From Thermosulfuriphilus ammonigenes (lineage in GTDB: Bacteria; Desulfobacterota; Thermodesulfobacteria; Thermodesulfobacteriales; ST65), in assembly GCF_011207455.1 (NCBI RefSeq), contig NZ_CP048877.1:178576-242575 (forward strand): a DNA stretch of 64,000 nt. Direction: 5' to 3'. Position numbers and translations under genes: made by a program. Below, piece by piece: positions 53,726 to 58,289 of the stretch (positions are counted from its first letter, which is position 1; the number at the start of each line of letters is the position of its first letter). Below the pieces are notes generated by a model. It had not been told where the DNA came from and ran no database searches. It worked only from the letters and a program-made list of their open reading frames with translations.

Positions 53726-54871
53726 TCAAAGGCTAAAGATATTCTTGTTGCGGCCCTCAAGATCCCTTAGCCAGTCTTTAAGAGAGCGGATATATCCCCG
53801 AACAAGAAGGGATTTGCCTATACGCCTGGTGCTTATCCGGGAAAGCCAGAAGGCCTCCCCCAGGCTTCCGGCCCCCTGGCCAGCCACTGCTGCCGGGGCC
53901 TGGCTCCCGCCGATGACCACCGGACCATAATAAAAAGCAATTTCATCCACCAGACCGGCGTCGAAGAAGGCCCCGTGGAGGGTAGCCCCGCCCTCAAGGA
54001 GAAGGGAAAGGATCCCTCGATCTTTAAGTTCGGTTAAGGCCTGGAGTAAATCAGGACGCCCGGCCCTAAGAGGAACCCTGATGACCTCGGCTCCTCGATC
54101 CCGAAGGGCCTTCTCCTTGACCGCCAAGGCCTCAGGACCACAGATAATAAAGACTCTGGCCGGGGAATCGGCAGCCAGAATCCTGGCCGAAGGGGGTGTT
54201 CTTAAATGGGTATCAAAGATGACCCGATGGGGATCACGCCCCCGGGGAAGACGGCAGGTAAGCCGGGGGTTATCAGCCAAAACGGTGCCAACTCCAACGG
54301 CGATGGCGTCTAAAGTCTTCCTTAAGCGATGGCCATCTTGCCTGGCCTTCTCATCAGTGATCCACTTTGAGTCGCCCCTGTAAGTGGCAATACGGCCATC
54401 AAGGCTCATGGCCGCCTTGGCCAAAACCCAGGGACGTCCTTCAGTGACCGCTTTAATAAAGAAGCGGGTAAGCTCTAAGGCCTCCTCGGCCAAAACCCCG
54501 CTTTTGACCTCAAGGCCGTGGGAGCGCAAAAATTCAAGCCCCCCGGCGGCCTGGGGATTGGGGTCTCTTAAGGCCACCACTACCCGAGCGATACCAGCCC
54601 GGAGAATAGCCTGGGTACAGGGGGGGGTGCGACCATGGTGATTACAGGGCTCAAGGGTAATATAGATGGTGGCTCCGCGAGCCGCCTCGCCAGCCTGAGC
54701 CAAGGCATAGACCTCGGCATGGGGCTTACCGGCCTGAGGATGGTAACCCCGGCCAATGATCCTCCCCTCCTTAACCACCACCGCCCCCACCGGGGGGTTG
54801 GGACTGGTGCGCCCCAGCCCCCGGCGCCCCAAGGAGAGGGCCTTTTTCATAAAATAAATGTCCTCGTCCAT
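53726..54871 (-). CDS. ribD: Bifunctional riboflavin deaminase/reductase
   Basis: A 381-residue fusion. The deaminase has the zinc motif HAEVYAL with TLEPCNHHGRTPPC; the reductase part has KAAMSLDGRIATYRGDSKWI and LLLEGGATLHGAFFDAGL. First gene of ribD-ribE-ribBA-ribH-nusB-leuS-lptE. I find no FMN riboswitch in the 235 bp before it. The AGAAGGGG site precedes the ATG. Confidence 0.95.
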   Translation of the reverse strand: MDEDIYFMKKALSLGRRGLGRTSPNPPVGAVVVKEGRIIGRGYHPQAGKPHAEVYALAQAGEAARGATIYITLEPCNHHGRTPPCTQAILRAGIARVVVALRDPNPQAAGGLEFLRSHGLEVKSGVLAEEALELTRFFIKAVTEGRPWVLAKAAMSLDGRIATYRGDSKWITDEKARQDGHRLRKTLDAIAVGVGTVLADNPRLTCRLPRGRDPHRVIFDTHLRTPPSARILAADSPARVFIICGPEALAVKEKALRDRGAEVIRVPLRAGRPDLLQALTELKDRGILSLLLEGGATLHGAFFDAGLVDEIAFYYGPVVIGGSQAPAAVAGQGAGSLGEAFWLSRISTRRIGKSLLVRGYIRSLKDWLRDLEGRNKNIFSL

Positions 54872-54910
54872 GGCCCCTTCTGGTACCAGATCTTAAGAGG
54901 ATGACAAGGA

Positions 54911-54932
54911 CGAGAAAGAAATTTCTTTCTCG
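54911..54932. promoter_or_regulatory. 22-bp perfect palindrome, candidate activator or operator site
   Basis: CGAGAAAGAAA followed directly by its reverse complement, 54911-54932. The core heptamer GAGAAAG/CTTTCTC recurs at 54943-54949 and 55002-55008. The site lies about 135 bp upstream of a sigma-54-like -12 element, a normal distance for an enhancer-binding-protein site, and 40 bp before ribD on the other strand. Confidence 0.6.
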
Positions 54933-55010
54933 GAAGAAAAATCTTTCTCAAGTGGAAAACATTTTCCCGAAGCTCCATCCAGAACTTGGCCTTTTATTTA
55001 TGAGAAAGTG

Positions 55011-55029
55011 GCCTCTTTTTAAAAGAGGC
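55011..55029. repeat. Inverted repeat upstream of the sigma-54-like promoter
   Basis: GCCTCTTTT-T-AAAAGAGGC, perfect 9-bp arms with a one-base centre. It lies 14 bp before the -24 element. On RNA it could form a stem; as DNA it could be a binding site. Confidence 0.5.
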
Positions 55030-55042
55030 ACCATACATAAGA

Positions 55043-55058
55043 TGGCCTGCCACTTGCA
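55043..55058 (+). promoter_or_regulatory. Sigma-54-type promoter for the PEP-CTERM gene
   Basis: TGGCCTG-CCAC-TTGCA matches the -24/-12 consensus TGGCACG-N4-TTGCW at 10 of 12 defined bases, with exact spacing of GG and GC. The start codon lies about 49 bp after it. PEP-CTERM genes are often under RpoN control with the PrsK-PrsR system. Confidence 0.7.
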
Positions 55059-55106
55059 TAATGAAGGCTCTCGCAAATTATAGAATTTTATAGAGGAGGT
55101 TGATGC

Positions 55107-55819: not shown

Positions 55820-55850
55820 AGGGGGGCCGGGGTGCCCCCTTTTTTATTTT
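55820..55850 (+). terminator. Rho-independent terminator after the PEP-CTERM gene
   Basis: AGGGGGG pairs with CCCCCT around a short loop (55820-55840), followed by a run of T's. It lies 24 bp after the stop codon and before the opposing kinase stop. Confidence 0.78.
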
Positions 55851-55868: not shown

Positions 55869-58289
55869 CTACTCTGAGGCCAGAATCTCTGAGACCTTAG
55901 CTAAAAGTTCGTCCAGGTAAAAAGGCTTTCTGAGGTAACCATCAGCCTCCCTGAGGAGGGGATCCATGCGGGGGTCAAGATCAAGACCGCTGGCGATAAG
56001 GACCTTTACCCCGGGAATTTTTCCTCTTAGGCGGTTAAAGGCCTCCCGGCCGCTGAGAAGAGGCATATTTATATCCAGAATAACCAGATCCAGGTTTTGC
56101 CCCTCCTCATCGGCGACCTCTAAGGCCTCCTGACCATTGGCGGCAGTAACCACTCTGTGGCCGGCCCGCTCAAGAATGGTCTTTAGCATCTCCCGAATAG
56201 GTTCTTCATCATCCACCACCAGAATGAATCCCCGAGCTCGAGCCCCTTTGGCCAGCGTTACCTCTTTAGGAGAAGGGGACTCTGCTTTCTGGCCTTCGTC
56301 CACCGGAAGATAGATATGAAACGCGGTTCCCCGACCGAGACGACTTACTACCTGACAGTGGCCTCCGTGCTCATGAATAACGTTGGCCACCATGGCCAGC
56401 CCTAGCCCTGTCCCCCGACCTTCTTTGGTGGTGAAAAAAGGTTCAAAGATGTGGGCCAAGGTCTCCTCGTCCATCCCTTGCCCGGTATCAGCTACCACCA
56501 GATGAACATATCGACCTGGCCGAACCCCTACAGGATTGTTCTCATCCATATAGACGAGAGAGGTCATCAAAGAAAGAATCCCTCCCTCAGGCATGGCCTC
56601 ACAGGCGTTAAGACAGAGGTTCATGATCATCTGTTCCAGTTGAGTGGAACTTCCCTTTATCGGGGGCAGTTCTTCAAGCTCAAGCCTTATACGGATACGC
56701 CGATCGATAGTATGTTTGAGAAGATCAACCACATTTTTGACTGATTGGTTGACATCAAGGGGTTTAAAGTCCCACTTTCGCTGTCTGGCGAAAGACAGAA
56801 GACGACGGCTCAACTCTGCCCCTCTCTCGGCGGCCCGCTCTATGGTCTCCAGAGCCCGAAGCTCGCCCTTGTCCAGGTGGGGGCTTTCTTTGAGGATAGA
56901 AATATGACCCATTATGGCACAGAGGACATTGTTGAAGTCGTGGGCGATACCACTGGTGAGGGTGCCGATAGCCGTAAGTTTTTCGGCCTCCACCAACTGA
57001 CGCTGGGTGGCATTGAGCTCTTTAATCTTATCCTCAAGATCAGTGTAAAGATCGATATTTTCCAGGGCCACAGAGATACTGCTGGCCAGAATACCAAAAA
57101 GATTAATCTCCTCCTCAGAGAAGCCCTGCGGATGATTGATAAAGACCAAAGCCCCCAAGACCCTGCTTTTGGTCATCAGCCAGAGAATCAGAAAGTTCTT
57201 CAGTTCAAAATCCGGGGGAAGGGATCCTAGAGGCCATTTGGTGGCCGCATCTTTTTGGCAGACAAGGGGTTTCCCCTGACCTTTGGACCAGGCGCCCTCC
57301 AGAGTCTGAGGAGGTATAGATATCTTGATCTCTCTGCCTTCCTGGCTTCTTAAACGGAGCATATAAGGAGAACCCTTAATGGCTATACCCCAAAGCTGGG
57401 TTTCAGTAAGATCTTTTAACTCCTCCAGACATCTTTCGATTATATATTCTTTGTCTAACTTCGAATGAATTAATATGGTTAATTTATGTAGATTATACAA
57501 TCTATTTAAGTATGTTTTTATTTTTACATCTCTTTCATTCAATGATGACCTCATTTTATCTATAGCCTTGAATATCTGCCCAAATTCATCTTCATATAGT
57601 GGGAAGTCTTTTGGAGTATAATCTTCTTTTTCGATACTCTCTATGGACTTCAATAAATCTTTTACTGGTGATATAATGCTAGTCGTTAGATATTTTGCTA
57701 CCAGGAGAGCAGAAATTAAACTTATTATTAAAATAATACTTAAATCTTTAATAGTTTTCTTGATGGTAGATATTAAAGTTTGTGTCTTTTTATGTAGATC
57801 TATCGATGCTTTGTGGATTATATTATGGACATGTTTTGTAATATCTTGCCCTAAAGATATTATTTCTTTAATCTCTTCGGTTTTGATTTCTTCATGACTT
57901 ATGATTTTATTTATTCTTTCTTTATAATTTTGAAATTCTCTTTCTATATGTTGAATTTTTCTTTTGGTGTTTGGCTGATGATGACACCCTTTACATTCCA
58001 AAATGATTCCATCTATTTCTTCTAAATCAAATGATATCTTGTTTGGTCTTTTTTCTTTGAAGCTAAATTCATATAAATTGTTTTGAATATTCTGAAAATG
58101 TATTAAAAGATTCTGACGGAGACTTTCTACCTCATGAATCTTAAGTTGATACCTTAAATTGGAGGAAAGGAAGAGGAGGTTATAGAAGGCGGCCCCTATA
58201 GCCACACTAAAGAAGAGAAATACGCCTAAAAAACTTAGAATTATGCGTTTCTTCATCTTGAAAAAGGTATGTTTAAGAAATTTTACCAA
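55869..58289 (-). CDS. Membrane hybrid histidine kinase with CXXCH motif in its periplasmic sensor
   Basis: An 806-residue protein. TM1 (about 15-40), a periplasmic helical sensor of about 140 residues with CKGCH (99-103), the heme-c attachment motif, TM2 (183-206), HAMP, a GAF region (270-420), HisKA of the HDFNNVLCAIMGHISIL type, HATPase (DTGQGMDEETL, GTGLGLAMV) and a C-terminal receiver (ILVVDDEEPIREMLKTIL, VILDINMPLLSG). I infer a redox or gas-sensing kinase. The gene is mosaic: the first 285 or so codons are AT-rich, the rest GC-rich. TTG 58289 has AAGGT upstream; ATG 58256 is the alternative. Confidence 0.88.
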   Translation of the reverse strand: MVKFLKHTFFKMKKRIILSFLGVFLFFSVAIGAAFYNLLFLSSNLRYQLKIHEVESLRQNLLIHFQNIQNNLYEFSFKEKRPNKISFDLEEIDGIILECKGCHHQPNTKRKIQHIEREFQNYKERINKIISHEEIKTEEIKEIISLGQDITKHVHNIIHKASIDLHKKTQTLISTIKKTIKDLSIILIISLISALLVAKYLTTSIISPVKDLLKSIESIEKEDYTPKDFPLYEDEFGQIFKAIDKMRSSLNERDVKIKTYLNRLYNLHKLTILIHSKLDKEYIIERCLEELKDLTETQLWGIAIKGSPYMLRLRSQEGREIKISIPPQTLEGAWSKGQGKPLVCQKDAATKWPLGSLPPDFELKNFLILWLMTKSRVLGALVFINHPQGFSEEEINLFGILASSISVALENIDLYTDLEDKIKELNATQRQLVEAEKLTAIGTLTSGIAHDFNNVLCAIMGHISILKESPHLDKGELRALETIERAAERGAELSRRLLSFARQRKWDFKPLDVNQSVKNVVDLLKHTIDRRIRIRLELEELPPIKGSSTQLEQMIMNLCLNACEAMPEGGILSLMTSLVYMDENNPVGVRPGRYVHLVVADTGQGMDEETLAHIFEPFFTTKEGRGTGLGLAMVANVIHEHGGHCQVVSRLGRGTAFHIYLPVDEGQKAESPSPKEVTLAKGARARGFILVVDDEEPIREMLKTILERAGHRVVTAANGQEALEVADEEGQNLDLVILDINMPLLSGREAFNRLRGKIPGVKVLIASGLDLDPRMDPLLREADGYLRKPFYLDELLAKVSEILASE

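Follow-up and report, generated by a model that had tools for sequence, protein, structure and literature searches.

Promoters of the sigma-54 type were described ahead of PEP-CTERM genes by Haft et al. (2006), who reported a 17-nt box ending in TTTACA and predicted PrsR as the protein reading it (PMC1569441). For the sigma-54 response regulator DVUA0057 of Desulfovibrio vulgaris, two reports place five PEP-CTERM genes among its DAP-chip targets (PMC3333781; PMC4641369), and pepA of Aquincola tertiaricarbonis was demonstrated to be RpoN-dependent by primer extension and with an rpoN mutant (PMC9850573).

We analyzed the region upstream of a PEP-CTERM gene within a 64-kb stretch of DNA (the window), which an earlier note had regarded as the control unit of a regulon. 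From that proposal, a sigma-54 promoter combined with an array of enhancer type that is common to PEP-CTERM genes could be retained, while the repeat unit, the regulator and the scope given to sorting had to be changed. Judged from its sequence, the region 54912-55058 very probably represents an enhancer-plus-promoter unit by which one activator would switch on a set of PEP-CTERM genes.

Anatomy of the promoter region

All elements listed in the earlier note for positions 54901-55106 (heptamers, palindrome, inverted repeat and -24/-12 site) were recovered (Table 1), and the distance of 135 bp between the palindrome center and the -12 element agreed with the figure given there. The -24/-12 element had been called near-consensus, and TGGC and TTGCA are indeed exact in TGGCCTGCCACTTGCA, but the AC of TGGCAC is missing. 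As matches to TGGC-N7-TTGC with at most one mismatch are commonplace (63 seen versus 54 expected), the TGGCCTGCCACTTGCA site draws its meaning from its context. It consists of GG-N10-GC in a TGGC/TTGC setting, with a gene carrying a ribosome-binding site downstream and, upstream, putative enhancer-binding-protein sites in the form of tandem dyads, located 83-124 bp from the -24 element and common to the sister promoters. Transcription of the PEP-CTERM gene is predicted to start near 55068. Moreover, the 16 strong enhancer-binding proteins of the genome imply the presence of rpoN.

Table 1. Features in and around the region upstream of the PEP-CTERM gene, in window coordinates.
Feature	Position	Strand	Remarks
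ribD	53726..54871	-	Divergent neighbor beyond the intergenic region; context
Perfect 22-bp palindrome CGAGAAAGAAATTTCTTTCTCG	54911-54932		
GAGAAAG/CTTTCTC heptamers, four exact	54912, 54925, 54943, 55002		
Dyad 1 GAGAAAGAAATTTCTT	54912..54927	.	Left part of the palindrome; 12.4 bits, sister-family-only matrix
Dyad 1' AAGAAATTTCTTTCTC	54916..54931	.	12-bp overlap with dyad 1, jointly the palindrome 54911-54932
Dyad 2 AAGAAAAATCTTTCTC	54934..54949	.	16.7 bits, rank 2 in the 64-kb window
Dyad 3 TGGAAAACATTTTCCC	54953..54968	.	Nearest the promoter; 21.3 bits, rank 1 in the 64-kb window
Stray GAGAAAG heptamer	55002..55008	+	Outside any dyad and outside the array
19-bp inverted repeat GCCTCTTTTTAAAAGAGGC (GCCTCTTTT-T-AAAAGAGGC, 9-bp arms)	55011-55029		Between array and promoter
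Sigma-54 -24/-12 element TGGCCTGCCACTTGCA	55043-55058	+	GG 55044-55045, GC 55056-55057
Ribosome-binding site GAGGAGG	55093..55099	+	Sequence
PEP-CTERM protein gene, 229 aa	55107..55796	+	PEP-CTERM at residues 206-228
Terminator-like hairpin and T-run	55820..55841	+	
Hybrid histidine kinase (HAMP, GAF, HisKA, HATPase, receiver)	55869-58289	-	Convergent with the PEP-CTERM gene

The encoded 229-aa protein scored 23.7 bits against PF07589 (cut-off 20.7), and its N-terminus, read by eye, resembles a signal peptide. A terminator-like hairpin follows the gene, which probably forms an operon by itself; terminator-like sites are no commoner in the stretch than in shuffled versions. The convergent hybrid histidine kinase is, by position only, a possible signaling partner. 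No RNA families were found in the 64-kb window.

The 9-bp inverted repeat between the array and the promoter is present as described, but four of the five sister promoters lack a counterpart. At 2044 kb of the same genome (L004), a hairpin with 16-bp arms, CGGCCATTTTGGCCGC...GCGGCCAAAATGGCCG, is situated, like the 19-bp repeat of the window, between dyads and -24 element; the other four promoters have no equivalent.

A 16-bp dyad as the conserved unit

The earlier note took the heptamer GAGAAAG/CTTTCTC as the repeated element. Across the window, 32 heptamers were counted versus 18.8 expected, and four within 97 bp correspond to a Poisson P of ~2e-7 before correction, the two copies in the palindrome not being independent; the copy at 55002 is probably a chance occurrence. 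When the upstream regions of other PEP-CTERM genes were checked, the heptamer was absent from those at 363k, 2045k and 1882k, and was otherwise found once ~60 bp above the dyads at 898k and once just before the gene at 1321k. It is thus not common as a regulatory element of the sister promoters, an outcome that would refute it under the criterion set by the earlier note, while the underlying dyad is, and we rejected the heptamer as the unit, regarding it as a by-product.

The conserved unit is a 16-bp dyad, RRGAA-N6-TTCYY, with a palindromic consensus of about GGAAAAATTTTTCC; the repeat had been mis-parsed. The window array comprises four dyad copies, two of which overlap by 12 bp and together account for the 22-bp palindrome (the 2.29-Mb genome contains a single match to the pattern GAGAAAGNNNNNNCTTTCTC). 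The strongest copy, dyad 3, is not among the heptamers and had been overlooked. In five upstream regions, GAA-Nk-TTC with k=6 was found 16 times versus 1.3 expected (maximum of 7 in 2000 shuffles), and 12 times versus 1.1 expected when the window's own promoter was left out, with no more than two occurrences for any other k from 0 to 15; these counts are partly circular, as the dyad was first spotted by eye in the same five regions. The independent tests of the dyad are rather the genome pattern search, the relatives, and a matrix built from 30 sites of the sister family (f3) alone, whose scores are therefore non-circular for this genome.

The arrangement of the dyads is regular. Across 19 promoters, dyad centers lie 50-136 bp from the G of the -24 element, and adjacent dyads are mostly 18-23 bp apart (~21 bp, about two helical turns). 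The phase of the dyads relative to the promoter is modestly non-random (P ~0.008, against a null in which each array was shifted rigidly). Dyad 3 stands 74 nt from the -24 element, with similar distances at the other promoters, which falls within the 32-92 nt that Haft et al. (2006) gave for an activator box before the sigma-54 motif.

Sharing of the unit among PEP-CTERM genes

The genome was then searched for a combined pattern of two dyads followed, after 44-74 or 47-77 bases, by GGC-N7-TTGC. Only five promoters matched in the 2.29-Mb genome, all five ahead of PEP-CTERM genes, and the reversed pattern, used as a control, gave none. There are ten PEP-CTERM matches in the genome, eight of them over the cut-off, whose upstream regions were compared. 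At a sixth gene, 1321k, two dyads accompany a weak -24 element. By sequence, the dyad/sigma-54 unit is common to at least five PEP-CTERM genes of this genome, with 1321k probably a sixth member; the sister-family matrix detected two to four dyads at each of these six single genes. Simulated windows also yield single sites with such scores by chance, so weight attaches to the cluster and not to a lone site. A search for one dyad plus promoter retrieved three genuine PEP-CTERM sites along with three other sites, 6 in all versus 2 in the control, and gives no ground for adding members to the regulon.

At three clustered PEP-CTERM-type genes at 683-687 kb (L002, L008 and L009), neither a sigma-54 site nor a dyad above 10 bits was found; the genome may hold two differently controlled groups of sorted proteins.

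The sorting machinery itself was represented by an exosortase (TIGR02602, 206 bits) at 622.9 kb. The regions read around exosortase/EPS genes, at 615.8-655.6 kb in this genome and next to the exosortase of a sister genome, showed no dyad-plus-sigma-54 unit. The array marks the sorted proteins, and what had been termed a regulon for surface-protein sorting appears, as seen in these sequences, to be a set of sorted proteins.

Occurrence in related genomes

Across the taxonomic order, the combined pattern was found in this genome and, within the sister family, in five of ten genomes; Thermodesulfatator is a named member of that family, in which the layout is as in the window. None of 30 genomes of the other family (f2) contained the pattern. 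A similar distribution was observed for the exosortase (this genome, 10/10 f3 genomes and 4/30 f2 genomes). Thirteen distinct f3 promoters were examined, a number that includes orthologous promoters, so that not all are independent. For eleven of them the downstream gene is intact, and each of these eleven genes encodes a PEP-CTERM-type C-terminus, one with PES for PEP; as for the other two promoters, the gene after one extends past the contig end, and the stretch examined for the other contains no frame. With the matrix from f3 sites, the window sites at 54953 and 54934 rank first and second of the 64 kb.

Elsewhere in the phylum, the combined pattern precedes some PEP-CTERM genes (L074, L100 and L117) and also other genes. 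Two loci of a same-phylum family (L094 and L096, family f34) have two dyads and a conserved ATAGATTATAACTAATTGAA-like block before sigma-54 sites; the proteins downstream lack a PEP-CTERM end, and one f34 genome (G183) has canonical PrsK/PrsR. In addition, a dyad/sigma-54 stretch in genome G210 (L083) recurs on four contigs, in four copies that seem identical; no open frame was found after the copy read, and the stretch is perhaps a mobile or repeated element. Moreover, in family f80 (L098, L099 and L121), a conserved 93-aa protein (MNLAMVKRELPVTAITKNKRI...) is preceded, at a distance of 40 bp, by a conserved dyad/sigma-54 unit.

Search for the activator

The earlier note expected a PrsR-type regulator. 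No protein of this genome or of five dyad-bearing sister genomes exceeded the PrsR or PrsK family cut-off, the tests being curated family models, under which a strongly diverged orthologue could score below the cut-off. The best PrsR score (TIGR02915) in this genome was 447.4 bits for a cut-off of 502.6, and the best PrsK score (TIGR02916) was 136.4 bits for a cut-off of 300, obtained with the C-terminal kinase part only; in a control genome of the phylum, adjacent genes reached 551.4 and 358.2 bits, respectively. Furthermore, within 400 bp upstream of nine PEP-CTERM genes there was no TTTACA or TGTAAA, and motif 1 of Haft et al. (2006), the 17-nt box ending in TTTACA, was likewise absent there.

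Seventeen proteins of the enhancer-binding type were compared, seven of which have a reciprocal best hit in sister genome G204 and none in f2 genome G065. One of them, L019 (G000:C1:1533.3-1534.4 kb), is our preferred candidate for the activator of the set, though at a rather low probability. It has no receiver domain, and its gene adjoins that of an NDP-sugar epimerase both here and in two of the sister genomes. The sister genome holds a reciprocal best hit for it and the single f2 genome tested holds none, a distribution that several other enhancer-binding proteins share. No dyad precedes L019's own gene. Among the named genomes, L019-type proteins are carried by Thermodesulfatator autotrophicus and relatives and by Thermodesulfobacteriales MAGs, and no promoter with two dyads turned up within 10 kb of the candidate in the scan of these named genomes.

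A relative of L019 in a Desulfobacterales MAG has a nearly identical recognition helix and sits between a PEP-CTERM gene, which it adjoins, and a locus with a lipoprotein-like TPR protein and EPS-type genes (identities by eye). The EPS operon there has a sigma-54 promoter with dyad-like sites upstream, but at the neighboring PEP-CTERM gene the sites are of the TGTAA type and not the dyad, so that this locus is at best suggestive for L019. The promoter of that EPS operon (L263:12900-13480) reads TGGCACACTACTTGCT, and its upstream sites mix TGTAA and TTCTC halves.

Other candidates were set aside: L015 and L020 have nearby sigma-54 sites without a dyad upstream; L016 is NifA-like, with its reciprocal best hit beside nif-type genes in the sister genome; L011 and L021, which are close together, L021 with FlbD-like scores, may at a guess be flagellar; and L024 lies near a molybdoenzyme-type gene.

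Discussion

The anatomy of the sites, their sharing, their specificity for PEP-CTERM genes, their regular spacing and the lack of PrsK and PrsR scores over cut-off were all read from sequence; that an enhancer-binding protein binds the dyad, which protein this is, and that the promoters are in use is what we infer. RNA polymerase with sigma-54 would wait at 55043-55058 as a closed complex, and the tandem RRGAA-N6-TTCYY dyads would be occupied by dimers of an enhancer-binding protein that has a Fis-type helix-turn-helix. The ~21-bp spacing would align the dimers on one face of the DNA, where they could form the ATPase ring that opens the promoter, and one activator would thereby bring about joint expression of surface-sorted proteins in this genome and in the Thermodesulfatator family.

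The same observations could be read as a classic PrsK/PrsR regulon, in which the activator is PrsR and the dyad a diverged PrsR box. The geometry is alike, with a sigma-54 promoter, a box ~60-80 bp upstream and single PEP-CTERM genes (PMC1569441), and the 14-bp TGTAA-N4-TTACA and GGAA-N6-TTCC are of equal length with similar inner A/T halves. The scores below both cut-offs here and in the five sister genomes, against a control genome above both, and the lack of TTTACA/TGTAAA upstream of the nine genes make such a regulon improbable. Slightly less probable still is that the dyads bind another regulator, for instance a repressor or a nucleoid protein, which modulates sigma-54 promoters whose activator binds at other sites. 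Sequence cannot by itself separate an enhancer-binding protein from another dimeric factor, and dyads as AT-rich as these might be used by some other binding protein or cause DNA bending; against this, the dyads are the element common to all these promoters, in tandem at the distances given above, and they appear specifically with sigma-54 sites. Sigma-54 promoters require an enhancer-binding protein, which also counts against it. Finally, although lone TGGC-N7-TTGC matches are common and the single-dyad search was not clearly above its control, chance AT-rich heptamers and a palindrome near a chance GG-N10-GC can be dismissed as the origin of the whole array, given a combined pattern confined in this genome to PEP-CTERM genes with an empty control, its recurrence in the sister family and the matrix ranks of the window sites.

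The enhancer-plus-promoter unit would then represent a variant form of the sigma-54/PEP-CTERM regulon already known, distinguished by its operator, and the variant presumably uses an activator different from PrsR. It is possible, though rather unlikely, that the regulon is PrsK/PrsR-independent in a specific manner, with a receiver-less enhancer-binding protein, encoded beside an exopolysaccharide-type sugar epimerase gene, reading the new operator and linking sugar/EPS state to surface proteins; if true, that state, and not a two-component signal, would drive surface-protein production. Overall, sequence alone defines a compact regulon of surface-sorted proteins in the thermophilic Thermodesulfobacteriales, and provides an operator that can be tested, some six target genes and a few candidate activators. 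As far as the tests reach, it keeps the sigma-54 logic while the PEP-CTERM regulator pair and operator are not retained, which suggests that sigma-54 control of PEP-CTERM genes may outlast PrsK/PrsR or arise without it.

Compared with described systems, the unit resembles the PrsK/PrsR/sigma-54 system of Proteobacteria in that a -24/-12 element stands ~50 bp ahead of a lone PEP-CTERM gene whose upstream region is long, with an activator box another 32-92 nt upstream of the element (PMC1569441). It differs from that system in carrying two to four tandem copies of RRGAA-N6-TTCYY instead of the 17-nt TTTACA box, and in that PrsR and PrsK were not found over cut-off here. The pepA gene of Aquincola tertiaricarbonis likewise combines a PEP-CTERM gene with a -24/-12 promoter and an upstream enhancer box, in an organism that has PrsK/PrsR (PMC9850573). 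DVUA0057 offers a direct precedent for one activator acting on many PEP-CTERM promoters; it differs in being a response regulator with a receiver domain, and its PEP-CTERM targets had been predicted earlier by Haft et al. (PMC3333781; PMC4641369).
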